Of a stretch of 45,095 bases of DNA, positions 2,921 to 36,021 are shown piece after piece. The position numbers and the translations under genes were made by a program. Source of the stretch: Tannerella sp. (GTDB lineage Bacteria; Bacteroidota; Bacteroidia; Bacteroidales; Tannerellaceae); contig JAISXP010000155.1 in assembly GCA_031270465.1 (NCBI GenBank), positions 1 through 45,095 of the forward strand. The letters run 5' to 3'. The first letter of the stretch is position 1. The number at the start of each line of letters is the position of its first letter. The notes beneath the pieces were generated by a model, which saw only the letters and a program-made list of their open reading frames with translations, did no database searches and was not told the DNA's origin.

Positions 2921-4012
2921 ATGATGAGACTTTTTTCTGCCTTAGAAAAGATATATACGAAAGAAAACCTGTCTGCATTGCAGGCGCAGCGGCTGGCACA
3001 CGAGATTTCGTTCGGTCCGGTCGTTTTTCAGGCGTCGCGCCTGATGGTTAAATTCGGTATCATGCAGTTGCTGATAGATTCCAAAGAGGGACTGACGATC
3101 GACGAGGTTGCAGAAAAGACAGGGCTTTCGCACTATGCCGCACAGGTTTTGCTCGAGTCATCACTCACCATCGGGACAACGATTTATGCAGAGGGTCGTT
3201 TCACTGCCTCCAAAGCCGGCTGGTTTTTGCTGAACGATCCGATGGTGAAAGTAAATATGGCATTCAACCACGATGTCAACTATCTGGGCTGGTTTCGTCT
3301 GGAAGAAGCCCTGCTGAACGGCACACCCGAAGGACTGAAAGTGTTCGGAGACTGGAAAACCATCTACGAAGGCTTGTCGGCTCTTCCTGCACAGGTGCAA
3401 AAAAGCTGGTTCGATTTTGACCATTACTATTCCGACGAAGCATTCGACGAAGCTCTCAAAATCGTATTCGCCGGTCATCCCCGCACACTGCTCGACGTGG
3501 GCGGCAATACGGGACGATGGGCTTTGCGGTGCGTGGATTATAATGACGGCATACAAGTCACGGTCATGGATTTGCCCTCGCAACTGGAAATGATGAAACA
3601 GCAAACGGCCGGCAGGAAGGGCGCCGAACGGATTTCGGGTCATGCCGCCGACTTGCTGGACAGGTCTGTCCCTTTCCCCGCCGGTTTCGACGTCGTCTGG
3701 ATGAGCCAGTTCCTCGACTGCTTCTCGGACGAAGAAGTCACGGGCATCCTCACCCGCACAGCCGCCTCGATGGATGCCGGCGCTACGCTCTTTATCATGG
3801 AAACGTTCTGGGACAGGCAACGCTTCGAAACAGCCGCCTACTGCCTTGCGCACATAAGCCTTTACTTTACGGCAATGGCCAACGGCAACAGCAAAATGTA
3901 TCATTCCGAAGACATGATACGCTGCGTGGAAGCCGCCGGTCTTGAAATTGAAAAAATAATCGACGGACTGGGAAAAGCGCATACCCTCCTCGTGTGTAAA
4001 AGAAAACAGTGA
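2921..4012 (+). CDS. SAM-dependent O-methyltransferase (first gene of polyene-type cluster)
   Basis: A 363-residue protein of the methyltransferase-2 (acetylserotonin O-methyltransferase-like) type. The N-terminal ~100 residues form the winged-helix dimerisation region (LTIDEVAEKTGLSHYAAQVLLE). The SAM site is the glycine-rich LLDVGGNTG at residues 190-198, and the acidic motif IV region includes FDVVWMSQFLDCFSDEE. It would transfer a methyl group to a hydroxyl of a small aromatic or polyene substrate. Related methyltransferases occur in Bacteroidetes polyene pigment clusters, where they are thought to decorate the aryl head; that role is inferred. ATG at 2924 is an equally possible start. 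It overlaps the next gene by one base. Confidence 0.88.
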   Translation: MMRLFSALEKIYTKENLSALQAQRLAHEISFGPVVFQASRLMVKFGIMQLLIDSKEGLTIDEVAEKTGLSHYAAQVLLESSLTIGTTIYAEGRFTASKAGWFLLNDPMVKVNMAFNHDVNYLGWFRLEEALLNGTPEGLKVFGDWKTIYEGLSALPAQVQKSWFDFDHYYSDEAFDEALKIVFAGHPRTLLDVGGNTGRWALRCVDYNDGIQVTVMDLPSQLEMMKQQTAGRKGAERISGHAADLLDRSVPFPAGFDVVWMSQFLDCFSDEEVTGILTRTAASMDAGATLFIMETFWDRQRFETAAYCLAHISLYFTAMANGNSKMYHSEDMIRCVEAAGLEIEKIIDGLGKAHTLLVCKRKQ

Positions 4013-4455
4013 TGCCGTTCGACGAGATAGACATACTGGACATACTGCCGCAACGGCCGCCTTTCGTGATGATCGGAAAGCTGCTGCATGTCGACGAACG
4101 TGTTACGCGCACCTCGCTGCTCGTGTGCGATGACAATATATTCTGCGAACACGGGCAGCTGACGGAATCGGGCGTCATCGAAAATATCGCCCAGACATGC
4201 GCCGCCCGCATGGGCTACATTAATAAATATGTGAGCAACGACACGGTGAAACTCGGATTTATCGGTTCCATCCGCAACATGGAAATCGTCCGGCTGCCCC
4301 TGACCGGCGAAACCCTCGTGACACAGATAGATGTGCAGGAAGAGATCTTCAGGATGACGCTGGTATACGCAACGGTCAGAGTCGAAGACGAACTCATCGC
4401 GTCGAGCGAAATGAAAATATCAATAACCGACATTGAACGTCAGGAAAATGAATGA
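4012..4455 (+). CDS. Hotdog-fold 3-hydroxyacyl-ACP dehydratase-like protein (FabZ/ApeI family)
   Basis: I use ATG at 4012, which overlaps the methyltransferase stop, in preference to GTG one codon upstream. The 147 residues form a single hotdog domain: LPQRPPFVMIGKLL near 12-25, then SGVIENIAQT at 53-62, where Glu57 fits the catalytic acid of FabZ-type dehydratases (ExxAQ). The catalytic His of the usual GHFP motif is not present at the expected place; the region reads NIFCEHGQLTE. A dehydratase is required at each round to form the conjugated double bonds. The later hotdog domain at 10629 has the opposite residue pattern (His present, Glu absent), so the two may work as a heterodimer. Confidence 0.82.
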   Translation: MPFDEIDILDILPQRPPFVMIGKLLHVDERVTRTSLLVCDDNIFCEHGQLTESGVIENIAQTCAARMGYINKYVSNDTVKLGFIGSIRNMEIVRLPLTGETLVTQIDVQEEIFRMTLVYATVRVEDELIASSEMKISITDIERQENE

Positions 4456-4879
4456 AAAGAACAATATACTGAAGGCTTCCGTGGAGATTAAGATTCGCTT
4501 CAGCGAAGTCGATTCGATGAACATCGTCTGGCACGGCTCACATGCGCTCTATTTCGAAGATGCACGCGAAGCCTTCGGCGCAAAATATGGACTTGGCTAC
4601 CTTGATATTTTCGCCAACGGGTATTACGCACCGTTGACGGACTTGCGTTTCAGCTATAAAAAACCGCTGATATACGGGCGGAAAGCACACGTCGACATTA
4701 CATACCGGCATACCGAAGCCGCCAAAATCGTTTTCGACTACGAGATATTCGATTCGGAAGACGGCTCGCAGGCCGCCACAGGCTCTTCGACGCAGGTCTT
4801 CCTCGATACGCAATACCGGCTGGTATGGACGAATCCGCCTTTCTACGAGGAATGGCAACGAAAATGGGGCTTGATATGA
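4448..4879 (+). CDS. Acyl-CoA/ACP thioesterase, 4-hydroxybenzoyl-CoA thioesterase family
   Basis: ATG at 4448 overlaps the previous gene by eight bases and gives 143 residues; no ATG lies further upstream in frame within a reasonable distance. The signature IRFSEVDSMNIVWHGSHALYFEDARE near residues 14-39 is split here as RFSEVDSMNIVWHG plus YFEDARE, the YbgC/4HBT pattern with the catalytic Asp. Aryl-polyene clusters encode a thioesterase of this family that probably edits or releases ACP-bound chains. It overlaps the downstream ketosynthase start by four bases (ATGA), which indicates translational coupling. Confidence 0.88.
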   Translation: MNEKNNILKASVEIKIRFSEVDSMNIVWHGSHALYFEDAREAFGAKYGLGYLDIFANGYYAPLTDLRFSYKKPLIYGRKAHVDITYRHTEAAKIVFDYEIFDSEDGSQAATGSSTQVFLDTQYRLVWTNPPFYEEWQRKWGLI

Positions 4880-6699
4880 TAAAGCAGACAGGAAACAATA
4901 TCATTTCGTCACTGGGATTCACGGCTCTGGAAAATTACGAATCGGTGAAATCGGGTCGTTCGGGCGTCGCGCGCTACGAGAACTGCATGGGTCTGCCCGA
5001 ACCGTTCATGGCTTCGCTGATCGACCGGGAACGGCTGAACGACTGTTTTGCCACGCTCCGTTCCTGTACGGACGATTACACACCCCTCGAAAAAGCGGCA
5101 ATCCTGTCGATACACGACGCCGCAACGCAAGCCCGTGTTGACTTGTCTGCTCCGCGCGTCCTGTTTCTGCTGTCAACGACCAAAGGCAACGTCCATCTGC
5201 TCGATGAAAATGAAAACCGACACCATCCCGACGCCGCCTGTCTGTGGTATTCGGCGCAACGCATAGCCGATTATTTCGGCAATCCCAACACGCCATCCGT
5301 CATATCCAACGCCTGCATATCGGGAGCCTGCGCTCAAATCGAAGCCTTGCGGCAATTGAATGCGGGCATGTACGACTGCGCCGTGGTGACGGGTGTCGAC
5401 ATGCTGTCCGGATTTATCATTTCGGGGTTTCAGTCGTTCAAAGCCCTGTCTTCCGGTGTCTGCCGTCCGTTCGACGCATCGCACGACGGGTTGAATCTCG
5501 GAGAGGCCGCCTCCACCATTATCTACCGGAAGGCCGACGAAACGGATATGAGCGGCGTCACGCTGATATGCGGCGCCGTACGCAACGATGCCAATCACAT
5601 CTCAGGCCCTTCACGGACGGGCGAAGGCTGTTTTCTCGCCTTGCAGTCAGTTACGAAAGAAGTGAATACGAACGACCTTGCATTCATCAGCGCACACGGG
5701 ACGGCTACGGTATATAACGACCGGATGGAGGCCGTCGCCCTTGCGCGCGCAGGACTTGACGGCGTGCCTGTGAACGGGCTGAAAGGTTATTTCGGACATA
5801 CACTGGGGGCGGCCGGCGTTCTTGAAAGCGTGATTTCGTCGTACGCACTGGCCGACCGTACGATTTTGCCGACGCCGGGCTTCACCGCAGGCGAGGCCGA
5901 TTCGACGCTTCGCATAACCGACCGGATTGCCCGCACGGAAAAACCGTATTTCATCAAGACGCTTTCGGGCTTTGGAGGCTGCAATGCGGCATTGCTGTTT
6001 CATTTCTCTCCGAAGAAAAGCGGGGATTCGAAGATTCAAAGATTCAAGGCTCCAGCGGCAATGCCGGCGCTTTACATATACAGGCATTGCCGCATCTCCG
6101 GCGGACGTGCGACGGTGGACGGAAAAACAGTCTTCGCCGGACAGGAAACGGAAAGCGGGAAGTTCCTCACCGCGCTGTACCGCTCGCTGAAAACGGACTA
6201 TCCGAAGTTTTTCAAGATGGACAACTTGTCGAAGCTCGGCTTTCTGGCGTCCGAACTGATTCTTCGCGAAGAGGCCTCGCGTTTTACGCCGTGTGTGGAC
6301 AGGGCTGTCGTTGGTTTCAACCGAAGTTCGTCGCTTGATACCGACATCGCATACCAGGCTACGATTCGCCATGCGGACGATTTTTTTCCCAGCCCTTCCG
6401 TCTTCGTTTATACGCTTCCGAACATCGTCACCGCCGAAATTGCCATCCGCAACAGGATATACGGCGAAACGTCGTTTTACGTTTGCGCACATTTCAATGC
6501 AGGACAGATAGCGACGACGGCAGGCCACGTTTTCCGGGATGGAAGCGTCCGCCATGCGCTGGTTGCATGGGTGGATTATTTCGACGGACAGTACGACGCG
6601 CTGATGTGGCTGACAGGAACTGCGCCGCCGGACGACACATTGCCGGGAATACCTTTTTCGGCAGACAAATTACAGGAAATATATTACAATCAAAATTAA
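4876..6699 (+). CDS. Beta-ketoacyl-ACP synthase fused to a degenerate ketosynthase-like domain
   Basis: ATG at 4876 overlaps the thioesterase stop. Residues 1-380 are a complete ketosynthase with Cys147 in SNACISGAC, His274 in SAHGTAT and His308 in GHTLGAAG. Residues about 396-607 form a second domain that matches the small 3-oxoacyl-synthase-like proteins of Bacteroidetes pigment clusters (YPKFFKMDNLSKLGFLASEL, NRSSSLDTDIAYQATI, VFVYTLPNIVTAEIAIRN). It lacks a nucleophilic Cys. In related clusters I know this domain as a separate gene; here the junction is a linker (GDSKIQRFK, about 383-391) encoded by a GATTC-type repeat, and Met396 looks like the old start. The first domain should extend the chain; the second may be structural. 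Confidence 0.85.
   Translation: MIKQTGNNIISSLGFTALENYESVKSGRSGVARYENCMGLPEPFMASLIDRERLNDCFATLRSCTDDYTPLEKAAILSIHDAATQARVDLSAPRVLFLLSTTKGNVHLLDENENRHHPDAACLWYSAQRIADYFGNPNTPSVISNACISGACAQIEALRQLNAGMYDCAVVTGVDMLSGFIISGFQSFKALSSGVCRPFDASHDGLNLGEAASTIIYRKADETDMSGVTLICGAVRNDANHISGPSRTGEGCFLALQSVTKEVNTNDLAFISAHGTATVYNDRMEAVALARAGLDGVPVNGLKGYFGHTLGAAGVLESVISSYALADRTILPTPGFTAGEADSTLRITDRIARTEKPYFIKTLSGFGGCNAALLFHFSPKKSGDSKIQRFKAPAAMPALYIYRHCRISGGRATVDGKTVFAGQETESGKFLTALYRSLKTDYPKFFKMDNLSKLGFLASELILREEASRFTPCVDRAVVGFNRSSSLDTDIAYQATIRHADDFFPSPSVFVYTLPNIVTAEIAIRNRIYGETSFYVCAHFNAGQIATTAGHVFRDGSVRHALVAWVDYFDGQYDALMWLTGTAPPDDTLPGIPFSADKLQEIYYNQN
6021..6053 (+). repeat. GATTC-type repeat forming the KS/KS-like linker
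   Basis: GGATTCGAAGATTCAAAGAT followed by TCAAGG lies inside the reading frame and encodes DSKIQRFK (Asp384 to Lys391). The same motif occurs at 11001-11054, 13362-13402 and 28551-28602, with a shorter relative at 18861-18879. Confidence 0.75.
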
Positions 6700-6707
6700 A
6701 TGACAAT

Positions 6708-6965
6708 ATGGATAAACTGATTCTAAAGTTGAAAGAAGAGATTATCGAAGTTTTGAATCTCGAAGACATTACGCCGGCCGACATCGACGAAAACGCACCA
6801 CTCTTCGGAGACGGACTGGGGCTTGATTCCATCGACGCGCTCGAGCTGATTGTCCTGATGGAAAAGAATTACGGCATCAAGTTGAAAGACCCTTCGCAGG
6901 GACGCGATCTTTTCAAGTCCGTACGTATCCTTGCCGAATATATTCAGGCAAACAGAACAAAATAA
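6708..6965 (+). CDS. Acyl carrier protein
   Basis: An 85-residue acidic four-helix protein. Ser41 in GLGLDSIDALEL is the phosphopantetheine site. The start is ATG at 6708; the frame is open upstream but only as a shadow of the ketosynthase, and translation from 6708 gives a standard ACP length. It would carry the growing chain between the ketosynthases, dehydratases and oxidoreductases of this cluster. The gap to the next gene is two bases. No phosphopantetheinyl transferase is encoded in the window, so a housekeeping enzyme must activate it. Confidence 0.95.
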   Translation: MDKLILKLKEEIIEVLNLEDITPADIDENAPLFGDGLGLDSIDALELIVLMEKNYGIKLKDPSQGRDLFKSVRILAEYIQANRTK

Positions 6966-6967
6966 TC

Positions 6968-8164
6968 ATGCGGGAGGAAATCTTTGTGACGGGCGCAGGT
7001 ATCGTTTCCGCACTGGGAACAGACCGGCAGGAGACGCTGGCTGCATTGCGCAGTCGCCGTTCGGGCATCGGCGCGCTTCGTTATCTGAACACTTTGCATA
7101 CGGAATTTCCCGTCGGCGAGGTGAAAATGAGTAACGGAGAGATGATGCGGCAGTTGAATATCTCCGAAGAGGAGGTGACGACACGCACGTCGCTGATGGG
7201 TATGATGGCTGCCCGCGAAGCCATCGGACAGGCCTGTCTGCAAGAAGACTCCCGCCCGCGGATCGCGCTGATTTCGGGGACAACCGTCGGCGGAATGGAT
7301 AAAAGCGAACAGTATTATATCGATTTCCTGACGAACGACACAAGAAATGCGTATATCGCCACCCACGACTGTGGCGCATGTACCGAAATGATTGCCGACT
7401 ATTTCGGCCTTTTTTCGATGGTAGACACGATTTCGACGGCATGTTCGTCGGCCGCCAATGCCATCATGCTCGGCGACATGCTGCTCCGCGAAGGAAAGGC
7501 GGACATTGCCGTAGTTGGCGGAAGCGAGTGCCTTACGAAATTTCACCTGAACGGTTTCAACACGCTGATGATCCTCGACGACGCCCCGTGCCGTCCGTTC
7601 GATGCAACCCGCGCAGGGCTGAATCTGGGCGAGGGAGCGGCATATCTCGTACTCGAATCCGAACGCACGTTTCGCCGGCGCGGCGTCACACCGCTGTGCC
7701 GTCTGACGGGCTACGCCAATACGTGCGATGCATATCATCAGACCGCCACGTCGCCCGAAGGTGAAGGCGCCTGTCTGGCAATGACGAAAGCGCTGGAATC
7801 GGCGCACCTGAAACCCGAAGACATCGACTACCTCAATGCACACGGCACAGGTACGCAAAACAACGACCTGACCGAAGGCATTTCCATTCAGCGGGTTTTC
7901 GGCGACGTCATACCGCCCGTGTCATCTACCAAAGCGTTTACCGGACATGCAACCAGTGCGGCGGGCAGCATCGAAGCCGTCATCTCGCTCCTGGCGCTGC
8001 AACACGATTTTATCCCCGTCAACCTGCACTTCTCCACGCCGATGAAAGAACTGCGCTTCACACCGGCGACGGACGAAAAACCGCCCAAACCGTTGCGGCA
8101 CGTCATGTCCAACTCGTTCGGGTTCGGCGGAAACGATACGTCTCTCATTTTTTCAAAAACTTGA
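6968..8164 (+). CDS. Beta-ketoacyl-ACP synthase II-type
   Basis: A 398-residue complete condensing enzyme. The catalytic triad is visible: Cys159 in STACSSAAN, His292 in NAHGTGT and His327 in TGHATSAAG, plus the C-terminal NSFGFGGND. The N-terminus VTGAGIVSALG is typical of the FabF branch. It is followed after six bases by a ketosynthase-like protein without the nucleophile, which is the arrangement of a KS/chain-length-factor pair in type II polyketide systems. It therefore probably does the iterative elongation, while the ketosynthase at 4876 may start or prime the chain. That division is inferred. Confidence 0.93.
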   Translation: MREEIFVTGAGIVSALGTDRQETLAALRSRRSGIGALRYLNTLHTEFPVGEVKMSNGEMMRQLNISEEEVTTRTSLMGMMAAREAIGQACLQEDSRPRIALISGTTVGGMDKSEQYYIDFLTNDTRNAYIATHDCGACTEMIADYFGLFSMVDTISTACSSAANAIMLGDMLLREGKADIAVVGGSECLTKFHLNGFNTLMILDDAPCRPFDATRAGLNLGEGAAYLVLESERTFRRRGVTPLCRLTGYANTCDAYHQTATSPEGEGACLAMTKALESAHLKPEDIDYLNAHGTGTQNNDLTEGISIQRVFGDVIPPVSSTKAFTGHATSAAGSIEAVISLLALQHDFIPVNLHFSTPMKELRFTPATDEKPPKPLRHVMSNSFGFGGNDTSLIFSKT

Positions 8165-8170
8165 CGCCTC

Positions 8171-9208
8171 ATGCAGCAAAATATTTACATCTCGGCAGCA
8201 AAACAGATTTCGGCGCAGTCTCCTTTGTCGGACGACTGGGTGGAGCATCCGCTGCTCTACGGCGAATCGTTCGTGCCGGCCATCGACCCGGACTACAGGC
8301 AGTATTTCCCACCCAACGCCGTCCGCCGGCTGGGGAAAATCCTGAAGCGCGCCCTGCTCGTTTCGCGGCAGGTGATGGACGAGGCAGGAATCAATTCGCC
8401 CGACGCCATCATTACGGGCACCGGATTCGGATGCATCGAAAATACGGAAATATTTCTCGACGCAATGCTGAAAGAGGGAGAAGCGTATCTCAAGCCTACG
8501 CATTTCATGCAGTCGACGCACAACACCATCAGTTCGCTGATTGCGATAGACTGTGGCTGCCACGGCTACAACATGACGTATTCGCACAAGGCGCTCTCGT
8601 TCGAATGTGCATTGCTGGATGCATTTGTCCGGTTGAAAAACGGAGAGGCGACAAATGTGCTGGCAGGCGGGCACGACGAACTGACACCTCATTTTCATAC
8701 TCTCCTGCAACGGCTGGAACGTATGGAGGCAGGCACGGCTTTTCGCAGCGAGACGGCTGTCGGCATGATGCTCACAAACCGGCACGTTCAAAACGCGCTT
8801 TGCCGCATAGACGGAATCGAGACTTTTTACCGTCCGAACGACCGGCAACTGAAACAGGCTCTGGACAGGATGCTGGCATACGCCGGATACCGGTATGACG
8901 AAATAGACGCCGTCATGACAGGCTGCAACGGAATGCCTGCCGACGAACAGGCTTACGACTGCCGGTGTACGAAACTGTTTCCCGATAAAAAACGGCTTCG
9001 TTACAAACGCCTGTTCGGCGACTCGTTTACGTCATCCGCCTTGGGGGTGTATGCAGCGGCTACATGCCTGCGCCGACGGCATATACCCGCGCATCTCTTC
9101 GAGGAGCAGACACAAGACGCTCTCGACGGCGCAACATGTTTGCTGCTTTATCATCTGTCTGAAAATAAAACTCATTCACTAATCCTTCTGTCATCATGTG
9201 GAAACTAA
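8171..9208 (+). CDS. Ketosynthase-like chain length factor
   Basis: A 345-residue thiolase-fold protein of the beta-ketoacyl synthase family. At the position of the active-site Cys the sequence is GYNMTYSHKALSFECALLDA, with Ser-His in place of Ala-Cys-Ser. The usual HGT and GHT histidine motifs are also missing (VMTGCNGMPAD and FGDSFTSSALG occupy those sites). This pattern is that of chain-length-factor subunits, which pair with an active ketosynthase and set chain length. Its partner is most likely the product of the gene at 6968. It overlaps the small membrane protein gene at 9196 by 13 bases. Confidence 0.85.
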   Translation: MQQNIYISAAKQISAQSPLSDDWVEHPLLYGESFVPAIDPDYRQYFPPNAVRRLGKILKRALLVSRQVMDEAGINSPDAIITGTGFGCIENTEIFLDAMLKEGEAYLKPTHFMQSTHNTISSLIAIDCGCHGYNMTYSHKALSFECALLDAFVRLKNGEATNVLAGGHDELTPHFHTLLQRLERMEAGTAFRSETAVGMMLTNRHVQNALCRIDGIETFYRPNDRQLKQALDRMLAYAGYRYDEIDAVMTGCNGMPADEQAYDCRCTKLFPDKKRLRYKRLFGDSFTSSALGVYAAATCLRRRHIPAHLFEEQTQDALDGATCLLLYHLSENKTHSLILLSSCGN

Positions 9209-9549
9209 TTCTTTTATCCGTGACGCAATGCCTGTTTCTGTGCGGAGGGCAGGTCTTTCTGAAACTGACCGTGGAAAAGACGGGCGCGTTCCGGTTTGCA
9301 TGGGCTTTTTTCCGCAACCTGCTCGTCAACTGGAATTTTCTGGCTTCCGGTCTGTGCATGGCGGTGGCCAGCTGCCTGTGGATGTACATGCTCAAGCGAT
9401 ACGAACTGTCGGTCGTTTATCCGATGATCAGCATCAGTTATGTTTTCGGAATGCTGGCATCGATATACATTTTCCACGAAACGGTATCCTTTGTGCGCTG
9501 GATCGGCGTTTTCATGATTATGACAGGCGTAGTATTAATTGCAAGATAA
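9196..9549 (+). CDS. Four-helix EamA/SMR-like membrane protein
   Basis: A 117-residue hydrophobic protein with four membrane segments, roughly 3-21, 40-63, 70-91 and 99-116. The loop KRYELSVVYPMISISYVFGMLAS is characteristic of half-size EamA proteins such as those that flip polyprenyl-linked aminosugars (ArnE/ArnF-like) and of small multidrug resistance proteins. Half-size members act as dimers. In this cluster it could flip a lipid-linked or glycosylated intermediate across the inner membrane; this fits the glycosyltransferase domain at 11055 but is an inference. Start ATG 9196 lies within the end of the preceding gene. Confidence 0.75.
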   Translation: MWKLILLSVTQCLFLCGGQVFLKLTVEKTGAFRFAWAFFRNLLVNWNFLASGLCMAVASCLWMYMLKRYELSVVYPMISISYVFGMLASIYIFHETVSFVRWIGVFMIMTGVVLIAR

Positions 9550-9557
9550 ACACCGGT

Positions 9558-10202
9558 ATGAAAAACAGGAAAGTATTTTATTCATTTGCCTTCGCGTGGC
9601 TGTTCGGCCTGGCGATACATGCGCAGATGCCGCCGGCGACAGCGGAACAGCAAAAAATGATGCTGGAGAAAATCATGGCGGCCTCCGAAAAGATGGAAAG
9701 CCTGATTTGCGATTTCGAACAGACGAAGGAACTGTCCGTCCTGAGCGAGCAAATCATCTCGAAAGGGAAAATGTATTACAGGAAAAACGGCAGGCTGCGC
9801 TGGGAATATCTTTCGCCCTACAGCTATACGTTCATCCTGAACGACAAGAAAATACTGCTGCAAACCGAAACGGGCAAAAACGTGATTGACATAAAATCGA
9901 ACCGGTTCTTTCAGGAGATAGTCAAAATCATGATAAACGGTGTGGACGGAAGCGGACTGACCGACTTCAAAAATTTCACAAACAGCTATTACTGGAGCGA
10001 TAAGAAATGGGAGGTCATCCTCAGCCCCGTCAAAAAGGAGATGAAACAGATATTTTCGTCCATCAAACTGACGTTCAACGTCAACGATTTCACGGTCGAA
10101 AGTGTGGTGATGGAGGAACGGAACGGCGATAAAACAAACATCCGTCTGACGGATAAAAAACTGAACGGCAAGGTTGAAGACAGGCAGTTTAATATTGATT
10201 AG
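9558..10202 (+). CDS. LolA-like outer-membrane lipoprotein carrier
   Basis: I use ATG at 9558, which begins a signal peptide (basic MKNRK, then FYSFAFAWLFGLAIHAQ, likely cut after Ala-Gln near residue 23). The 214-residue protein has the LolA pattern: a short helix, DFEQTKELSVLSEQIISKGKM and YRKNGRLRWEYLSPYSYTFILNDKK. LolA-type proteins hold acyl chains in a half-barrel while crossing the periplasm. Aryl-polyene and flexirubin clusters carry a dedicated LolA homologue, thought to carry the hydrophobic product or a lipoprotein to the outer membrane. It lies eight bases after the small membrane protein gene. Confidence 0.85.
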   Translation: MKNRKVFYSFAFAWLFGLAIHAQMPPATAEQQKMMLEKIMAASEKMESLICDFEQTKELSVLSEQIISKGKMYYRKNGRLRWEYLSPYSYTFILNDKKILLQTETGKNVIDIKSNRFFQEIVKIMINGVDGSGLTDFKNFTNSYYWSDKKWEVILSPVKKEMKQIFSSIKLTFNVNDFTVESVVMEERNGDKTNIRLTDKKLNGKVEDRQFNID

Positions 10203-10632
10203 CGTGTACGCCTGTCTGGCCGTTTCGTGCCGGACTGTAGGGGATGCGCCCGCCGCGATACGGATGTTCGATGCCGGCAGGACATCCGGCTATCAGGTGC
10301 GCATCCGAACGGAACAGGCCGAAGTGACGGGCATCCTGATAGTGAAACATATCGACGGCGAATGGCGCGGAAGCCTGATGAACGAGTTCGGCCTCAAGGC
10401 GTTCGATCTCGTCGCATCCGAAAGGAAATGCCGTCTGATACACGTCGTCCCGTTTCTGGACAAGTGGTATATCCGCCGCACGATTGAACGCGATTTCATC
10501 TATCTTTTCCGCGATGCGCCGAAAGGAAAAGCGGCGAGAAACAAACGCCTGACACGGACGGGCGAGGGCGCTTTCGTCCTGAAAAACACGGCGAGGCACA
10601 TCGAGTACACATTTCAAGCGTTTACCCTATGA
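10174..10632 (+). CDS. Outer-membrane lipoprotein with TTG start
   Basis: The start must be TTG at 10174: it overlaps the LolA-like gene by 29 bases and is the only start that gives an intact lipoprotein signal, with a hydrophobic stretch and the lipobox LAVSC, placing the lipidated Cys at residue 19. The mature part (~133 residues) is basic, beta-rich and has no domain I can name; by position it could play the part of LolB- or DUF3261-like partners found next to LolA in polyene clusters. The inefficient start and overlap suggest coupling to the upstream gene. It overlaps the next gene by four bases (ATGA). Confidence 0.75.
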   Translation: MKTGSLILISVYACLAVSCRTVGDAPAAIRMFDAGRTSGYQVRIRTEQAEVTGILIVKHIDGEWRGSLMNEFGLKAFDLVASERKCRLIHVVPFLDKWYIRRTIERDFIYLFRDAPKGKAARNKRLTRTGEGAFVLKNTARHIEYTFQAFTL

Positions 10633-11795
10633 AACTGATAGACGACTTTTTTCACATCCTGCAGATGCACGAAAACGAATCGGGATTCGTGTACACAATC
10701 GCCCTCAACAAAGACCATTTCATCTACCGGGCGCATTTCCCCGGAAACCCGATTACGCCGGGCGTATGCATCATCCAGCTGTGCAAAGAATTGATGGAGC
10801 ACAGGCTGAAACGGCCGCTGTTTGTCCGCAGGGCGCTCAACGTGAAATTCCTGTCGGTAATCAATCCCGAGGCGTGCGACACGCTGCAGGTCGTTTTTTC
10901 CAAAGTCGCGACGGTGGACGACGGCTGCAAGGTTGCCGTTTCGATCTGCCGGGACGATACGCAATTTGCCAGGGCGAGCCTTTTCTTCCAATGGAGGGAA
11001 ATTCGGGATTCGAAACTCGAAATTTCAGATTCCAGATTCGGGATTCGGGATTTGATGAAGCAGGCGGGCGTATGCACAGTCATTCCCACCTACAACAACA
11101 ACGCTTTCCTGAGCGGCGTGCTTGATGCCGTCCTGCAGTATGCCCCGTCCGTGATTGTGGTAAACGACGGCTCGACGGACGGCACGGAGGAAACGCTGAA
11201 CCGCTACCGGCAACAAATCAAAATCGTTTCGTACAGCCCGAACAGGGGGAAAGGCCATGCGTTGCGCCGCGGCTTCGACGAAGCGGAAAAGTCGGGCTAC
11301 TCGTATGCCCTGACGATGGATTCGGACGGCCAGCACGATGCCCGCGACATCCCGAAATTCGTGGAAGCCCTCCGCCGGCATCCCGACAGCATGATCATCG
11401 GCAGCCGCAATCTCCGGCAGGAAAACATGCCCGCGGCGAATACTTTTGCCAACCGCTTCTCCAACTTCTGGTTTACGATGCAGACCGGCATCCGCCTGCC
11501 CGACACGCAGACCGGCTTCCGCCTCTATCCCCTGAAGCAGATGAAGGGCATGAGAACATTCTCGTCGCGCTACGAAGCCGAACTCGAACTGCTCATACGC
11601 TCGGCTTGGCGAAACATCCCCCTGCACCCGATACCCGTACGGGTGCGATACCTGCCCGAAGGCGAGCGCGTAACGCATTTCAGGCCGGGCATTGATTTCC
11701 TGCGCATCAGCATACTGAACACGCTGGCCGTCGTCGGCGCGATTTTCTACGGATATCCCGCACGGCTGTTCCGGCGGCTGAAAGACGGAATTTAG
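10629..11795 (+). CDS. Hotdog dehydratase-like domain fused to family 2 glycosyltransferase
   Basis: A 388-residue two-domain protein. Residues 1-124 are a FabZ-like hotdog fold with His36 in AHFPGNPITPGVCIIQ; the catalytic Glu of FabZ is Gln50 here. Residues 125-142 (including DSKLEISDSRF) are encoded by a GATTC-type repeat. Residues 143-388 are a GT2 glycosyltransferase with VVNDGSTDGT and the DxD-type TMDSDGQHD, close to dolichol-phosphate-mannose synthase-like enzymes, with a hydrophobic C-terminal stretch. Met143 (ATG 11055) is very likely the old independent start. The glycosyltransferase would add a sugar to a lipid or polyene. No stop separates the two parts, so a fusion is expected unless translation also begins at 11055. 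Confidence 0.87.
   Translation: MKLIDDFFHILQMHENESGFVYTIALNKDHFIYRAHFPGNPITPGVCIIQLCKELMEHRLKRPLFVRRALNVKFLSVINPEACDTLQVVFSKVATVDDGCKVAVSICRDDTQFARASLFFQWREIRDSKLEISDSRFGIRDLMKQAGVCTVIPTYNNNAFLSGVLDAVLQYAPSVIVVNDGSTDGTEETLNRYRQQIKIVSYSPNRGKGHALRRGFDEAEKSGYSYALTMDSDGQHDARDIPKFVEALRRHPDSMIIGSRNLRQENMPAANTFANRFSNFWFTMQTGIRLPDTQTGFRLYPLKQMKGMRTFSSRYEAELELLIRSAWRNIPLHPIPVRVRYLPEGERVTHFRPGIDFLRISILNTLAVVGAIFYGYPARLFRRLKDGI
11001..11054 (+). repeat. GATTC-type repeat forming the dehydratase/GT2 linker
   Basis: Five GATTC-like units (ATTCGGGATTCGAAACTCGA, then TTTCAGATTCCAGATTCGGG, then ATTCGGGAT) lie in frame between two enzyme domains and end directly before ATG 11055. It belongs to the family at 6021, 13362 and 28551. 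Confidence 0.75.
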
Positions 11796-11805
11796 CCAAT
11801 CGCCA

Positions 11806-11871
11806 AACACAAAGATACGGGGAACACGGAGAAAAGACATATTCTCCGTGTTCTTTGTGCCTCCGTGTTTG
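11806..11871. repeat. CCGTGTT-type repeat with 12-base-pair hairpin
   Basis: GAACACGGAGAA (11822-11833) and TTCTCCGTGTTC (11842-11853) form a perfect 12-base-pair stem with an 8-base loop. The flanks CAAAG and CTTTG extend it after a bulge, and the right flank repeats CCTCCGTGTTT. There is no following T-run. It lies ten bases past the glycosyltransferase stop, so it may stabilise or end the upstream transcript, or be only a low-complexity repeat. Confidence 0.65.
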
Positions 11872-11934
11872 AATAAAGAAAAAATCTCTTCGCAGTTCAC
11901 GAAAAAAAACAATAATTTTTTTTTCACCGGATAA

Positions 11935-11967
11935 TTGCGCCATATTCAAAAAATATTGTTACATTTG
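11935..11967 (+). promoter_or_regulatory. Internal cluster promoter before the exporter gene
   Basis: TTG at 11935-11937 and TACATTTG at 11960-11967 are 22 bases apart, close to the Bacteroidetes pattern. The rest of the 313-base gap has a 25-codon frame (ATG 11996, stop 12071-12073) that I do not recognise and do not call. This promoter would make the exporter and oxidoreductase genes a second transcription unit. Confidence 0.55.
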
Positions 11968-12108
11968 CCCCCGTTTTTGATTAAAGTAAAAATACATGAA
12001 CCACAGCTCACATATCACCTTCGCTTTTTCGGCGGTGCAACAGTTTGAATTGATAATCGACACAGTCAAATGACGCCGGTTCGTTTTACCGTTTAACCTG
12101 CCGATAAG

Positions 12109-15100
12109 ATGACGGATTTTTTTGTTTCCATATTCAAGCGTTGTGCCGCGCACAGAAAACTGACGGTTGTGCTGTCGCTGCTGCTTACGCTCGCTCTCAC
12201 GCCGGCGCTCCTGACAATGGAATACAGGGAAGACATTGCCGAATTTCTCCCCGACAGCAAGGAAAACGAACGCATCAACACCATTTACCGCCATATCGGA
12301 ACCTCCGGCAAACTGATGATTTTTTTCTCGCACAAGGATTCGGCGCAGCATGACGCCGAACGCATCATCGAGGCGATAGACAGTTTTGCGGTACGGCTGG
12401 AAGAGAATGACAGCCTGCGCGTCATCCCCGAAGTCATCGCACGGATAGACGAAAGCCTCCTGCCCGAACTGATGGATTTCATCCGGAGCAATGTGCCCTA
12501 TTTCCTGACCGAAAACGATTTCCGCCGCATCGACTCTCTGCTGACGGACGAATACGTCGCCTCCTGCCTGAAAAACGACAAACAGCTGCTGACGATGCCT
12601 TCGGGCGCAATCATGAAAGACAATATCGTCGGCGACCCGCTGCACCTGTTCGCTCCCCTGTGGCAGGAACTGAACGCTTTCAGCGCCGGCGAAAACAGGG
12701 AACTGAACGACGGATACATCTTCTCGGACGGCGGACGGAAAGGAACCGTCATCGTGACTTCGCCCTACGGCGTGAGCGAAACGGACAGAAACGCGGCGCT
12801 GCTCACACTGATCGACCATACGGTGAGGCAGGTGGAAACGTCGTTCCCCGACATGCGAATCAGCTGTTTCGGCGCGCCCGCCATCGCCGTTGCCAATGCA
12901 GACCGGATAAAGAGCGACAGCCTGCTGGCCGTTTCGCTGTCCGTCCTGCTCATCCTTGTCCTGCTGATATTCTTTTTCCGCAACATGCGACACATCCTGC
13001 TCGTGTTCCTTTCCGTGTTTTTCGGATGGCTGTTTGCCCTCGCGCTGCTGGCCGTATTCAAAGGTAGCATATCCATTATTGCACTCGGCATCAGCTCCAT
13101 CTTTATCGGTATAGCCATCAATTATCCGCTTCATTTCATCGACCGCACACGGCATCAGCCCGACGTCGGGCAGGCGCTGAAAGAGATTGCCTCGCCGCTG
13201 CTCATCGGGAACATCACGACGGTAAGCGCCTTCCTCAGCCTCGTCTTCATCCCTTCAAACGCCATGCGCGACATGGGTCTGTCCGGCTCGCTGCTTCTGG
13301 CGGGGACGATACTGTTCGTGCTGATTTTCCTGCCTCACCTGGTTCGGCGGCACGGGAAGCACAGTTCGAAGAGTCAGGGCTTCGGGGATTCAAAGATTTT
13401 CGACCGCTTCGTCTCCTTTGCTCCCGAACGGAAGAAATGGATTATATGGAGCGTGCTGATTCTGACATGCCTGTTTCTCTATCTGAGCCGGTTCACGACG
13501 TTCGAACCGGACATGAACAAAATCAACTATATGACCGACCGACAGCGCGAAGACATGCAACACATGATGCAGTTACTCGAAAAACGCGACAGGGATATCG
13601 TCTATTTCGTCTCCGAAGGCGCGACGCTCGACGATGCACTGTCGGCCAGCGAACAGAACGCATGGCTGCTCGACACGCTCGTGCGCCGTGGATGGATAGA
13701 AAGCATTTCGGGGACGGGTGTCTTCCTCGCGTCCGGAGCGGAACAGCAGCGGCGAATCGACCGGTGGAACGGTTTCTGGCAGCCGCGCAGGGAATGGCTG
13801 CTGCAGCAACTGGAGGCGTCCGGACAGGCGGAGGGATTCAGGAAAGGTTCGTTCGAACCGTTTGCACAACTGCTGAAACGCGATTTCACCGTGCAGGACG
13901 AAACCTTTTTTGCACCGCTCGTCTCGCTGCTGGCCGAAAACTATATCGTGCGCGACGAAAACCGTCACATGCTCGTCCATCTGCTGTATTGCAGCAAGGA
14001 CAGGACGGCTGCGCTCGAAGACGCCATCAGAAGCGACGCCGGGAACGCTTTCGTGTTCGACTCGCGCGACATCGGGCGGCGCATGGTGGATGCGCTTTCC
14101 GACGACTTCAACTACGTGCTCTTCTTCTGCGGATTCATCGTCTTTCTTTTCCTGACAATATCGTTCGGGAGGCTCGAACTCAGTCTGATGACATTCCTCC
14201 CGCTGGCGGTTAGCTGGATATGGATTCTGGGCATCATGCAGCTGACCGGGATGAGTTTCAACATCGTCAATATCATCCTTGCCACGTTTATCTTCGGTCA
14301 GGGCGACGATTATACCATTTTTATTGCCGACGGACTGATATACGAATATGCATTCCGTCGGCGCATGCTGGCTTCACACAAGCGCAGCATCATGCTCTCT
14401 TCGCTCATCATGTTTTCCGGTATCGGGACGCTGATTTTCGCCCGGCATCCTGCGCTGCATTCGCTGGCCGAAGTGACGATTGTCGGAATGTTCTCGGTCG
14501 TCATGATGGCATACATCATTCCGCCGTTTATTTTCCGGTGGCTTACGCAGCGGAAAGACGGCGGATACCGCGAAGTGCCCGTCACATGCCGGCGGGTGCT
14601 TTATTCCGTCTATTCGTTTGCCGCTTTCCTCGTCGGGAGCATCCTCGTCACTGCTGTGGGCTTTTCGCTCTTCATCTTCGGGAAGACCGAAAAGCGGCGG
14701 CTGCGCTATCATACGTTCCTCTGCCGCGTGTCGCGCTTTGTGGTGAAGCGCATTCCAGGCGTGAAGTTCCGGCTCGACAACCTGTCGCACGAATCATTCG
14801 AACGGCCGGCCGTCATCATCTCCAACCATCAGTCCCATCTCGACCTGAAGTGTCTGCTGATGCTCACGCCACGGCTGGTGATTCTGACGAACGACTGGGT
14901 CTGGAACAATCCCTTCTACGGGCAACTGATCAGATATGCGGATTTTTACCCCATATCCGGCGGCATCGAACACTGTATCGACGAACTTGCCGACCGTATG
15001 AAAAACGGTTATTCCATCGTGATCTTCCCCGAAGGCACACGCTCGGAAGATTCGTCCATCCTGCGGTTTCATCGCGGCGCATTTTATCTGGCGGAAATGC

Positions 15101-15729
15101 TGACAGCCGACATACTGCCCATCATTCTCCACGGCGTGGGCGACGTGTTGCCCAGGAAGGATTTCATGCTGCGCGAAGGACGCATCACGGTCGAGATTCA
15201 TCCGCGCATTGTACCCGGCGACACCCGCTACGGTACGGATTATGCCGCCCGGACGAAACAACTCCGACAATGGTACGGCGAACAGTTCGGCGCAATGTGC
15301 ACCCGCCTGCAGGATGCACGGTACTACAAAAGCTTTGTCCTGCACAACTATTTCTATAAAGGCGCGTCCGTCGAGCGGAGCGTATCCGCCGCGCTGAAAA
15401 AGACAGACTGCTTTGCCCGCTGGATAGATGCGCATCACGGCAATGACAGCATACTGGTCGTGAACAGCGGATACGGCGAGTTCGCCTTCCTGTTTGCGAT
15501 GGTGCACAGACAATGCCGCATCACAGCCGTCGATCGCGACGAAGACAGGACAGCGCTGGCGCGCGCCTGTGCCGGACTGCCTCCCAACCTGCATGTCTGC
15601 CTCGAAACGGACTTGCCGGCAGACGCAACGTTCGACAAAGTATATCTGCTGCGCCCCGACAGTGCACAGACGAAGGCGTACAGCCATTATAATCCTATAA
15701 TAATAAACGAATGGAAAAACATGTTCTGA
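12109..15729 (+). CDS. MMPL/RND exporter fused to acyltransferase and Rossmann domain
   Basis: A 1206-residue protein in three parts. Residues 1 to about 850 are an MMPL-type RND transporter: a membrane helix near 18-36, a large periplasmic loop, helices near 265-420, then a second half with the same plan, including the helix 5 region FIFGQGDDYTIFIADG. Residues about 890-1070 are a PlsC-type acyltransferase with HX4D at His907-Asp912 (NHQSHLD) and FPEGTRS at 973-979. Residues about 1105-1195 resemble a Rossmann methyltransferase (ILVVNSGYGEF, then AVDRDED), possibly degenerate. MMPL proteins with an attached acyltransferase are known from Bacteroidetes pigment clusters. It would acylate and export the product. 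A GATTC-repeat insertion encodes GFGDSKIF near 424-431 between the halves. Confidence 0.88.
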   Translation: MTDFFVSIFKRCAAHRKLTVVLSLLLTLALTPALLTMEYREDIAEFLPDSKENERINTIYRHIGTSGKLMIFFSHKDSAQHDAERIIEAIDSFAVRLEENDSLRVIPEVIARIDESLLPELMDFIRSNVPYFLTENDFRRIDSLLTDEYVASCLKNDKQLLTMPSGAIMKDNIVGDPLHLFAPLWQELNAFSAGENRELNDGYIFSDGGRKGTVIVTSPYGVSETDRNAALLTLIDHTVRQVETSFPDMRISCFGAPAIAVANADRIKSDSLLAVSLSVLLILVLLIFFFRNMRHILLVFLSVFFGWLFALALLAVFKGSISIIALGISSIFIGIAINYPLHFIDRTRHQPDVGQALKEIASPLLIGNITTVSAFLSLVFIPSNAMRDMGLSGSLLLAGTILFVLIFLPHLVRRHGKHSSKSQGFGDSKIFDRFVSFAPERKKWIIWSVLILTCLFLYLSRFTTFEPDMNKINYMTDRQREDMQHMMQLLEKRDRDIVYFVSEGATLDDALSASEQNAWLLDTLVRRGWIESISGTGVFLASGAEQQRRIDRWNGFWQPRREWLLQQLEASGQAEGFRKGSFEPFAQLLKRDFTVQDETFFAPLVSLLAENYIVRDENRHMLVHLLYCSKDRTAALEDAIRSDAGNAFVFDSRDIGRRMVDALSDDFNYVLFFCGFIVFLFLTISFGRLELSLMTFLPLAVSWIWILGIMQLTGMSFNIVNIILATFIFGQGDDYTIFIADGLIYEYAFRRRMLASHKRSIMLSSLIMFSGIGTLIFARHPALHSLAEVTIVGMFSVVMMAYIIPPFIFRWLTQRKDGGYREVPVTCRRVLYSVYSFAAFLVGSILVTAVGFSLFIFGKTEKRRLRYHTFLCRVSRFVVKRIPGVKFRLDNLSHESFERPAVIISNHQSHLDLKCLLMLTPRLVILTNDWVWNNPFYGQLIRYADFYPISGGIEHCIDELADRMKNGYSIVIFPEGTRSEDSSILRFHRGAFYLAEMLTADILPIILHGVGDVLPRKDFMLREGRITVEIHPRIVPGDTRYGTDYAARTKQLRQWYGEQFGAMCTRLQDARYYKSFVLHNYFYKGASVERSVSAALKKTDCFARWIDAHHGNDSILVVNSGYGEFAFLFAMVHRQCRITAVDRDEDRTALARACAGLPPNLHVCLETDLPADATFDKVYLLRPDSAQTKAYSHYNPIIINEWKNMF
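13362..13402 (+). repeat. GATTC-type repeat inserted in the exporter gene
   Basis: TTCGAAGAGTCAGGGCTTCG followed by GGGATTCAAAGATTTTC adds an in-frame segment containing Asp427-Ser428-Lys429 in the cytoplasmic linker between the two exporter halves. It is more diverged than the copies at 6021 and 28551. Confidence 0.6.
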
Positions 15730-17201
15730 TTGTAGGAAGCGGCCTGGGCGGATTGACGTGCGGTTATATCCTGTCGAAAAACGGATTCAGGGTGAGCCTG
15801 TTCGAAAAGAACGTTCAACCGGGCGGATGTCTACAGACATTCGTACGCCACGGCGTGAAGTTCGAAACGGGGATGCATTACGTGGGAAGCATGGAGGAAG
15901 GGCAGACACTGCACCGTTTCTTCAAATATCTCTCGCTGCTTCCCGACGTGGAGATGTCGTCGCTCGACAAATCGGCTTACGACATCATCTCGCTCGGCGG
16001 CCGGCGTTTCGCCTATGCCAGCGGCGCCGAGCGCTTCGTCGATTCGCTGGCCTCCCGTTTCCCGAACGAGAGGCGCAATCTTGAACGCTACGTCGGCGTG
16101 ATACGCAGCGTGGCTAACGACTCTCCGCTGTATTCGTTACGCCATACGCATCCGGTGACGCTGCTCAACCCCGAATATATCAAGCAGAGCGCAAGTTCGT
16201 TTGTCGATTCGGTGACATCCGACCCGCTGCTGCGGCAAGTACTGGCAGGCAATCTGCCGCTCTACGCCGGCATCCGGGGGAAAACGCCGCTCTACATCCA
16301 CGCGCTTGTCAACGATTTCTACAACAAAAGCAGCTACCGTATCGTTGGCGGAAGCGATGTCATTGCCCATTCGCTGATCAAATCCATCCGGGCGGCGGGC
16401 GGCGCGGTACGTACGCTGTCGAAGGTTGTAAAAATCGACTGCGACGAGAAGAAAGCCGTTGGCGTCACGCTTGAAAACGGCGAAGAGGTACGGGGCGACT
16501 ACATCATTTCCAACATTCACCCGTGCCGCACCATCGAACTGCTCGATACCCGTCTGATACGGAAATCCTACTGCGAACGGATCATGAACCTGCGCAATAC
16601 GGTGTCGAACTTTACCGTCTACATTCATTTCAAAAAAGATACGGTGCCCTATCTCAATTCCAATTTTTTCCACTACAACGGGGCGAGCGTCTGGGGCTGC
16701 GAAGACTATACGGAGGCAGACTGGCCGAAATCGTTTCTGTACATGCATCACTGCTCGGAGCACAGTCAGCGCTATGCCGTGGCGGCGGTACTGTTTGCAT
16801 ACATGAATTTCGAGGACGTGGCAAGGTGGAACGGCACGCGCATCGGCCGCAGGGGCGAAGACTACGAAGTCTTCAAACGGCAAAAGGCGGAGCGCCTGCT
16901 CGACGAACTGGAAAAACAGATGCCCGGTACACGTGCAAACATCGAACGGTACTACACGTCCACGCCACTGACCTATCTCGACTACACCGGGACGGAAAAA
17001 GGCTCGATGTACGGCATCTTTCGCGACTGCACGGAGCCGGTGCAGACCGTCGTCTCGCAGCGCACCAAAGTGTCCAACCTGTTTCAGACGGGACAAAACA
17101 TCAACTCGCACGGCATACTCGGCGTCATCATCGGCGCAATCATCGCTTCGGGCGAACTGCTCGGCGTAAACACCATTATCGAACAGATAAAACGCACGTA
17201 A
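15711..17201 (+). CDS. CrtI-like FAD-dependent oxidoreductase, copy 1
   Basis: A 496-residue protein with an N-terminal dinucleotide-binding fold: VLIVGSGLGGLTCG (GxGxxG at residues 9-14) and the FAD-ribose acid Glu32 in LFEKN. It continues with the substrate region PGGCLQTFVRHGVKFETGMHYVG and ends with TGQNINSHGILGVIIGA, the second FAD motif typical of phytoene desaturase/carotene isomerase relatives. Members of this family reduce, oxidise or isomerise conjugated chains. In polyene clusters the job is not settled; desaturation or cis-trans isomerisation is likely. It overlaps the exporter gene by 19 bases and is followed after three bases by a paralogue. Confidence 0.88.
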   Translation: MEKHVLIVGSGLGGLTCGYILSKNGFRVSLFEKNVQPGGCLQTFVRHGVKFETGMHYVGSMEEGQTLHRFFKYLSLLPDVEMSSLDKSAYDIISLGGRRFAYASGAERFVDSLASRFPNERRNLERYVGVIRSVANDSPLYSLRHTHPVTLLNPEYIKQSASSFVDSVTSDPLLRQVLAGNLPLYAGIRGKTPLYIHALVNDFYNKSSYRIVGGSDVIAHSLIKSIRAAGGAVRTLSKVVKIDCDEKKAVGVTLENGEEVRGDYIISNIHPCRTIELLDTRLIRKSYCERIMNLRNTVSNFTVYIHFKKDTVPYLNSNFFHYNGASVWGCEDYTEADWPKSFLYMHHCSEHSQRYAVAAVLFAYMNFEDVARWNGTRIGRRGEDYEVFKRQKAERLLDELEKQMPGTRANIERYYTSTPLTYLDYTGTEKGSMYGIFRDCTEPVQTVVSQRTKVSNLFQTGQNINSHGILGVIIGAIIASGELLGVNTIIEQIKRT

Positions 17202-17204
17202 GTC

Positions 17205-18719
17205 ATGGAAACAAAACAGACGGTAATCATCATCGGCGGCGGAATCGGGGGACTGTTCTGCGGAGCAATCCTGAGCAGGGAAGGCTGGCATGTGAAAATC
17301 TTCGAACGCCATTTCAAACTTGGCGGCGGACTGCATCAGTTCGTGCGCCGGGGCGTCGCCTTCGAGACGGGCATGCACGTCATGGGCGCGTTTCATCCCG
17401 GCGGCGTCCTGCACAGAATCTGTTCCTATCTCGGTATCCTGGACCAACTGACTATCCTGCCGGAAGACGACGACTGCTTCGACATGTTCCATATCAAATC
17501 CGACGGGCGAAAATACCTCATGCCGCGAGGATACGAACGGTTCGCGGCAAACCTGTGCCGGCATTTCCCCGAAGAACGCGAGAATATTCATCACTACATG
17601 AAAGCTCTGTACGGCATCTGTCGGGAAGTCAGGCTGTACAACATGGAAAATCCCGACATCTCCTTTCAGGAATTTTCGGACGGCTTCATGCGAAGCGTCG
17701 GCGATTTCATTGACTCCTTTACCCAAAACGAACGGCTGCGATACGTCATGGCCTACTGCAATCCACTCTATGCGGGCGACCGGAATGCCACGCCCGTGTA
17801 TATCCACGCGCTGATAAGCAAATTCTACATCGAAGGCGCATGTCGCTTCGCCGGAGGCAGCCAACAACTTGCGGATGCGCTCGCCGGCGTCGTCCGGCAG
17901 GCGGGAGGCGAAATATACACGGGTAACGGCGTGACTCGTGTTGAAATAGAAAATAAAAACGCAGCATATATCGTCGCGGCAGACGGGACGCAACACCGTG
18001 CCGACCGCTATATTTCGAGCATTCATCCGTCGTCATTCTTCAAACTGACGGACACATCCAAAATACAGCGCTCCTACTGGCAGAGAATCGATTCCATCCC
18101 GAATACGTATTCGGCCTATACGCTGTACCTCGTCTTCAAACCGGAATCTTTCCCCTTCTTCAACTACACGTATTATTATCAGGACGATTATGAAGAGACG
18201 TGGAAACACCACCTCTACACCGAAGAGACCTGGCCGAAGGGACTGATGTTTATCACGCCTCCCGTCACGAAACACGATGTTTTCGCCGAAAAAATGATCG
18301 TAAACTGCATCATGAACTTCGACACCGTCAGCCGGTGGGAAGATACCGTCAGCGGGAAACGCGGCAAAGAGTACGAAGCATTCAAACGCCGCTGCGAAGA
18401 AAAAATCATCCGCAAACTGGAAGAAATATTCCCGGACATACGTTCATGCATCAGGGGAATATACAGTTCAAGCCCGCTTACCATCCGCGACTTCTACAAT
18501 CAGAAGGAAGGCGCAATGTATGGCGTCAGAAAAGACTGCCGCAACATGGCGCTTTCGCATATTGCCGTACGGACAAAAATGAAAAACCTCTTCTTTACGG
18601 GACAGAGCATAAATTTGCACGGCATTTTGGGCGTCCCCCTCACCGCCATCAACACCTGCGCCGAACTGGTCGGGATGGAAAATCTGCTTGACAGGATAAA
18701 TGCATACAAAACACAATAG
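17205..18719 (+). CDS. CrtI-like FAD-dependent oxidoreductase, copy 2
   Basis: A 504-residue paralogue of the preceding protein with the same plan: IIIGGGIGGLFCG (GxGxxG at 11-16), an acid in IFERHFKLGGG, HQFVRRGVAFETGMHVMG, and a C-terminal TGQSINLHGILGVPLTAI. The two proteins share many short motifs, such as CxPVYIHALI-like and YSSSPLTxRDF-like segments, but have diverged clearly, so this is an old duplication. The pair might form a heterodimer or act on different steps. It is the last gene of the cluster; no clear hairpin terminator follows. Confidence 0.88.
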   Translation: METKQTVIIIGGGIGGLFCGAILSREGWHVKIFERHFKLGGGLHQFVRRGVAFETGMHVMGAFHPGGVLHRICSYLGILDQLTILPEDDDCFDMFHIKSDGRKYLMPRGYERFAANLCRHFPEERENIHHYMKALYGICREVRLYNMENPDISFQEFSDGFMRSVGDFIDSFTQNERLRYVMAYCNPLYAGDRNATPVYIHALISKFYIEGACRFAGGSQQLADALAGVVRQAGGEIYTGNGVTRVEIENKNAAYIVAADGTQHRADRYISSIHPSSFFKLTDTSKIQRSYWQRIDSIPNTYSAYTLYLVFKPESFPFFNYTYYYQDDYEETWKHHLYTEETWPKGLMFITPPVTKHDVFAEKMIVNCIMNFDTVSRWEDTVSGKRGKEYEAFKRRCEEKIIRKLEEIFPDIRSCIRGIYSSSPLTIRDFYNQKEGAMYGVRKDCRNMALSHIAVRTKMKNLFFTGQSINLHGILGVPLTAINTCAELVGMENLLDRINAYKTQ

Positions 18720-22320: not shown

Positions 22321-22342
22321 TTCACATCAAACATTTTAAATC

Positions 22343-31961: not shown

Positions 31962-31994
31962 TATTTCGAGAACAAAAAAACAATTGATTGAAAA

Positions 31995-33404: not shown

Positions 33405-33421
33405 CTAATTTACTAATTTAA
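33382..33421 (+). repeat. ACTAATTT-type short repeat between leuC and leuD
   Basis: TTAATTAGCAAATTTCCCAA, then TTGACTAATTTACTAATTTA. Units of ACTAATTT/AGCAAATTT repeat about four times. The first half encodes the last residues of LeuC and the second half is the spacer before leuD. It is another low-complexity intergenic repeat that has entered a gene end. Confidence 0.65.
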
Positions 33422-33427
33422 AAATAT

Positions 33428-34030: not shown

Positions 34031-34048
34031 AAAACAGATTATTGTGGC

Positions 34049-35563: not shown

Positions 35564-35569
35564 AACATT

Positions 35570-36019: not shown

Positions 36020-36021
36020 AA

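Follow-up and report, generated by a model that had tools for sequence, protein, structure and literature searches.

Genes of a probable flexirubin-type aryl-polyene pathway lie at two loci in a Tannerella genome

A run of 14 genes in a Tannerella sp. genome has the content of an aryl-polyene or flexirubin biosynthetic cluster, yet holds no ketoreductase gene and no gene for making a starter unit, which raises the question of how such a cluster could work. The genes occupy positions 2921-18719, all on the + strand, of a window that is the entire contig C102 (45,095 bases) of a 3.03 Mb assembly in 183 contigs (90.66% complete). A preliminary description had assigned them to the aryl-polyene/flexirubin clusters and offered three answers: a housekeeping FabG serves the cluster, a second locus exists, or the product is different in kind. 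We found the second locus, with FlxA and FlxB, on contig C92 of the same genome. The assignment also held, with the NCBIfam flexirubin models for FlxA (809 bits, cut-off 700), FlxB (395, cut-off 340) and FlxJ (607, cut-off 560) all over cut-off. The type II set of ketosynthase (KS), chain-length factor (CLF), acyl carrier protein (ACP), dehydratase and thioesterase was present in conserved order, one dehydratase (4009-4455) being a weak call. The sequences thus point to a flexirubin-type aryl-polyene cluster of which C102 carries the greater share, 14 genes, and the second locus on C92 five more (probability about 0.9). This is a scattered known pathway and not new chemistry, and gene dispersal within the genus is its only unusual point.

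We searched the genome with PF00221, PF13561, PF00501, PF01648 and PF08541 and obtained no match on C102. The absence of an ammonia lyase, a short-chain dehydrogenase/reductase (SDR), an AMP-ligase, a phosphopantetheinyl transferase (PPTase) and a KAS III from this contig is real. The earlier statement that the contig lacks a ketoreductase, ammonia lyase, AMP-ligase, PPTase and DarB was correct; DarA was not searched for. A block of FlxA, FlxB, KS, ACP and LpxL-type acyltransferase genes was located on C92 (15,029 bases) at 7425-12111, with the following members characterized:

C92:7425-8966, tyrosine ammonia-lyase FlxA (NF053541, 809 bits), with an ASG motif at residue 140.
C92:8963-9694, ketoreductase FlxB (NF053542, 395 bits), with a YSAAK motif.
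C92, KS whose best score was FabB-like, under cut-off.
C92, LpxL-type acyltransferase (PF03279, 72.6 bits, cut-off 22.3).

The flanks of this block were unrelated to it, with GH95, C11 peptidase, radical SAM, UbiA and SASA genes on the left and an Mfa2-like gene (12324-14867) on the right, indicating that no part of the block is cut off by a contig end. A search for contigs that overlap C92 at its left end returned only C92 itself. The only PPTase found was the single PF01648 match in the genome, on C36 beside a gldE/gldD-like gene. Taken together, the genome-wide searches recovered FlxA and FlxB on C92 and a PPTase on C36, and did not recover FlxY or DarB. We also observed that the SASA-UbiA-radical SAM-C11 block left of FlxA on C92 was inverted relative to genome G010 (L042:2347-7180 against L153:1-5577). 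In G010 this block ended about 0.7 kb before a gene series of X128, FlxY and acyltransferase; on C92, C11 was followed by GH95 and the contig end.

The gene order of the two loci was then compared with that of other Bacteroidales. Over their extent (to the first CrtI-like gene), the stretches L070, L072 and L073 showed, in one contiguous series, the order of C92 and then that of C102: FlxA-FlxB-KS-ACP-LpxL, then FlxJ-dehydratase-thioesterase-KS-ACP-KS-CLF-EamA-LolA-lipoprotein-dehydratase/GT2-MMPL-CrtI1. L071 showed the same order, with no lipoprotein match scored. One series in G057, a genome that belongs to another family and is 99% complete, read FlxA-FlxB-KS-ACP-LpxL-FlxJ-dehydratase-thioesterase-KS-KS-CLF-deacetylase-LolA-(185 aa, unmatched)-dehydratase-GT2-MMPL-CrtI-(AAT)-FlxY, with no row scored for a second ACP and a polysaccharide deacetylase in the place taken by the EamA-type protein in the window. 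These contiguous clusters hold the same genes in nearly the same order, unbroken where ours is broken between the LpxL-type gene and FlxJ. Because the order of C92 plus C102 equals the contiguous order elsewhere, our cluster has one break, at that point. Searches of named genomes gave at least 579 stretches with CLF relatives; the 80 best were retained, and these included some from the same genus or copies of genomes in our set. The nearest named metagenome-assembled genomes may come from termite guts, to judge by the form of their isolate codes, although these codes did not occur in the passages searched of two termite papers (PMC11481507, PMC9137090). Among the 60 of these with a full 10 kb upstream of CLF, FlxA was present in 32, FlxB in 47 and both in 30; FlxY lay within 10 kb downstream in 14 of the 53 with a full 10 kb there. 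Four genomes outside the genus had FlxA over cut-off; in G039, G056 and G057 it shared a contig with CLF, and in G037 it did not.

The 14 genes on C102 were as follows:

2921..4012, +, FlxJ-family methyltransferase (NCBIfam NF053543, 607 bits), Methyltransf_2 plus Dimerisation2-like.
4009..4455, +, probable hotdog 3-hydroxyacyl-ACP dehydratase (FabZ 34.4 bits, under cut-off 113), in the same position in contiguous clusters.
4448..4879, +, 4HBT-type thioesterase (PF13279, 51.7 bits, cut-off 25.5).
4876..6699, +, ketosynthase fused to a second KS-like domain, Cys-His-His motifs in the KS part.
6708..6965, +, acyl carrier protein with LDSID motif (PF00550, 35.7 bits, cut-off 20.8).
6968..8164, +, ketosynthase with Cys-His-His motifs, matching FabF-type structures.
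8171..9208, +, CLF-like partner of the ketosynthase (PF13723, 36.3 bits, cut-off 25).
9196..9549, +, half-size EamA/ArnE-like membrane protein, 117 aa (PF00892, 37.7 bits, cut-off 28.2; ArnE 53 bits, under cut-off 92).
9558..10202, +, LolA-like periplasmic carrier (PF03548, 49.3 bits, cut-off 23.6).
10174..10632, +, small lipoprotein-like protein (labelled by eye; no Pfam match), with homologues at the equivalent place in relatives.
10629..11795, +, dehydratase domain (PF07977, residues 1-57) fused to a GT2 glycosyltransferase (PF00535, residues 151-268).
12109..15729, +, MMPL exporter (PF03176, 60.9 bits) fused to an LPLAT-type acyltransferase (PF01553, 73.9 bits).
15711..17201, +, CrtI-like FAD oxidoreductase 1 (PF01593, 77 bits; CrtD 128 bits, far under cut-off 549.7).
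17205..18719, +, CrtI-like FAD oxidoreductase 2 (PF01593, 67.8 bits).

Intergenic distances ranged from -29 to +8 bases, the sole exception being a 313-base gap (11796-12108) before the MMPL gene. Every gene named for this region in the preliminary description, including the half-size EamA-type protein, was found on the + strand; its list was right as to content and did not spell out two fusions, that of the first KS with a second KS-like domain and that of the second dehydratase with GT2. The homologues of the fused KS protein in G039, G023 and G030 were two unfused genes, and those of the dehydratase-GT2 fusion in G057 and G056 were likewise separate genes. The dehydratase at 4009-4455 had no Pfam family at 0.01, and its assignment is weak because the FabZ score was under cut-off; it rests on position and homology in relatives. 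None of the 11 Cys of the CLF stood in an AC[SI][SG] context. Structure-sequence searches returned general KS matches only.

In the proposed pathway, FlxA would convert tyrosine to 4-coumarate, which a ligase, FlxY or a substitute, would activate. The KS/CLF pairs would extend this starter with malonyl units, and reduction of each beta-keto group by FlxB, followed by dehydration by the hotdog dehydratases, would yield a conjugated polyene. The methyltransferase and CrtI-like enzymes may then tailor the polyene, and its delivery to the outer membrane, in the form of a lipid, may fall to the acyltransferase, MMPL, LolA-like and lipoprotein-like proteins. The E. coli-type (Ape) aryl-polyene clusters of Proteobacteria follow the same KS, CLF, ACP, dehydratase, thioesterase, LolA, GT2 and MMPL logic; their starter is not known to come from a tyrosine ammonia-lyase, and the CrtI-like pair and FlxJ (a name we took from NCBIfam) are extra in the present cluster. 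A flexirubin is an aryl polyene esterified with a dialkylresorcinol, and Schoner et al. (2014, PMC3992019) established FlxA of Chitinophaga pinensis as a tyrosine ammonia-lyase and its FlxY as a 4-coumarate-CoA ligase, with the dar genes (darA/darB) apart from the flx genes flxA-flxY. As far as that study describes the C. pinensis cluster, it has in common with ours FlxA, FlxB, several KS, dehydratases, an acyltransferase, LolA, a glycosyltransferase and an exporter; it differs in that our flx genes lie over two loci, FlxY was not found in our assembly and DarB is absent.

We assessed the dispersal of these genes in a set of 37 same-genus genomes, our own included. CLF was present in 35, FlxB in 31 and FlxA, over cut-off, in 19, and FlxA and CLF were unlinked in all 18 genomes that had both. 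On the single contig of G030, CLF lay at 2.005 Mb and FlxA at 0.834 Mb (1.17 Mb apart), FlxB at 0.905 Mb and DarB at 2.403 Mb, so that the pathway genes occupied four loci, counting DarB. The FlxA-FlxB-KS-ACP-LpxL block recurred away from the CLF contig in G010, G016 and G003. FlxB stood beside FlxA in 4 of the 31 genomes (G000, G003, G010, G016), within 8.5 kb of CLF in 10 and in neither place in 17, and these varied positions indicate that the break points differ within the genus. The possibility, raised earlier, that relatives always split the cluster in this way was thus borne out only for the separation of FlxA from CLF within Tannerella; the break points vary, and the genes are contiguous in other families. 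FlxA was not found in 18 of the 37 genomes, two of which were fairly complete at 93% and 98% (G004 and G018). These two had CLF and FlxB with no FlxA match, which may reflect either gaps in the assembly or a pathway begun from a different starter.

In the CLF tree (91 rows), the partners of the window's clade were L070-L073 (97/88), the other Tannerella forming a separate 11-row clade (100/100). In the FlxA tree (34 rows), FlxA of C92, G003, G010 and G016 joined L071 (100/98), while L070, L072 and L073 grouped with other Tannerella (99/98). The union of the C92 FlxA with those of G003, G010 and G016, which have the same five-gene block, speaks against a binning error. G002 had two CLF copies, one of each type. 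The trees suggest exchange between lineages with a mosaic outcome rather than one clean transfer.

Several observations weigh against a single pathway divided between C92 and C102. The CLF and FlxA trees are not in full agreement, so that the C92 and C102 genes may differ in part in their history. Most relatives are fragmented metagenome-assembled genomes, in which a different contig is weaker evidence than a large distance, G030 excepted. Neither FlxA nor FlxB lay within 10 kb upstream of CLF in 11 of the 60 relatives with that span (from the best 80 of at least 579). FlxY was not found in our 90.66% complete assembly, and DarB (NF053539) had no match at 1e-30 in our genome.

For FlxY we used model NF053551 (cut-off 520), with which the G030 protein scores 687. 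The protein on C145 was rejected as FlxY, since it scored 548 bits as PaaK and 200 as FlxY; this PaaK could in principle stand in for FlxY. AMP-binding proteins on C28, C44 and C60 had no similarity to a FlxY homologue at 1e-5, and a substitute ligase may be among these proteins, which were compared only with that homologue. The AMP-ligase near the PPTase on C36 was also rejected: the 25 of 103 families shown were all under cut-off, and no cluster homologue lay around it. FlxY was present in G003, G010 and G016 (69-70% identity to the G030 protein) and was not found in G028. Three genes adjoined FlxA in both G030 and T. forsythia (L046:9995-12833, L051:5819-8651): one for a protein of 123-128 aa with no Pfam or NCBIfam match, FlxY, and one for an acyltransferase of 379-383 aa. 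A second FlxY-like ligase, about 50% identical, lay about 1.2 kb from FlxY in G027:C273, G033:C78 and G009:C168.

With respect to the product, the two KAS III proteins of our genome scored 35 and 37 bits with the DarB model (cut-off 550); the one on C57 was over FabH cut-offs, and the one on C134 scored best as KAS III, under cut-off (237, cut-off 249). Of the 37 same-genus genomes, 20 had DarB matches; a single match exceeded the curated cut-off, and the other full-length ones scored 505-548 bits, with that of G036 in two pieces. No DarB was found in G000, G003, G010, G016 or G028, nor in the 24 genomes outside the genus. G003, G010, G016 (99% complete) and G028 are the four genomes with the nearest CLF, and the lack of DarB from them and from our genome indicates that the product probably lacks an ester link to a dialkylresorcinol. 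Judged from gene content, it is probably an aryl polyene without dialkylresorcinol and not a flexirubin in the strict sense. We tentatively suggest, as a possibility well short of an even chance, that the flexirubin-type pathway of this Tannerella sub-clade has lost its dialkylresorcinol branch (perhaps FlxY as well), has been dispersed to unlinked loci and yields another kind of membrane lipid, in which the MMPL-acyltransferase and dehydratase-GT2 fusion proteins would join an aryl polyene derived from tyrosine to a glycerolipid or sugar lipid.

It is unlikely that a full flexirubin, the dialkylresorcinol ester, is made and that FlxY and DarA/DarB are encoded in the 9% of the genome that the assembly lacks. 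The incomplete assembly, the DarB matches elsewhere in the genus and the presence of FlxY in three of the four nearest-CLF genomes are consistent with it; DarB is absent also from all four of those genomes. A cluster with no ketoreductase and lyase of its own, in which a housekeeping FabG reduces, the starter is unusual and the product is different in kind, is very improbable. It accords with the absence of ketoreductase and lyase genes from C102 and with 9 SDR matches in the genome, one of them beside the KAS III gene on C134. Against this, dedicated FlxA and FlxB over curated cut-offs are present in the same genome, and their gene order joins this cluster directly elsewhere. With FlxB present, there is no need to invoke a housekeeping FabG as the reductase, and a product different in kind, one of the options first suggested, is unsupported. 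That C92 and C102, both from a 183-contig assembly, are neighbours in the chromosome separated only by an assembly break can be dismissed as scarcely credible, because non-cluster genes occupy both would-be joining sides (an AraC regulator left of FlxJ and the Mfa2-like gene right of LpxL) and FlxA is far from CLF in the one-contig G030.

The division of a known pathway between C102 and C92 shows how an ordinary aryl-polyene pathway can seem defective when only one window or contig is read, and since the genes lie over two or more loci in the genus, cluster-based predictors may miss or misname it. Aryl-polyene clusters of Tannerella are already listed in a survey of bacteria from the human mouth and airways (PMC8549736), so the pathway in the genus is not new. 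The broken arrangement was not found described in the literature searched on flexirubin and aryl polyene, and that searched on Tannerella with either term yielded no study of a pigment. A flexirubin-type pigment is a yellow-orange membrane pigment, and on our reading relatives of Tannerella forsythia would have a polyene pathway that starts from tyrosine.

The left contig end is only 2.9 kb from the cluster, leaving a short left flank:

1209..2324, -, AraC-type regulator adjoining the cluster (PF12833, 68.7 bits), a candidate only as to any link.

A SusC/SusD-like pair, named by eye, lay 3' of the cluster on the same strand (19066-24088), and a promoter/terminator scan of the region 3' of the cluster revealed no terminator-like site. 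In relatives (L053:16501-17781, L055:17260-18543 and L069), a B12-binding radical-SAM-like gene, under all cut-offs, was directly 3' of the second CrtI-like gene; the window has the SusC-like gene in that place. Further along, 30465-37095 contained a leucine-biosynthesis-like group, with two different HMGL/LeuA-dimer proteins, an aconitase-family gene and an isopropylmalate-dehydrogenase-family gene.

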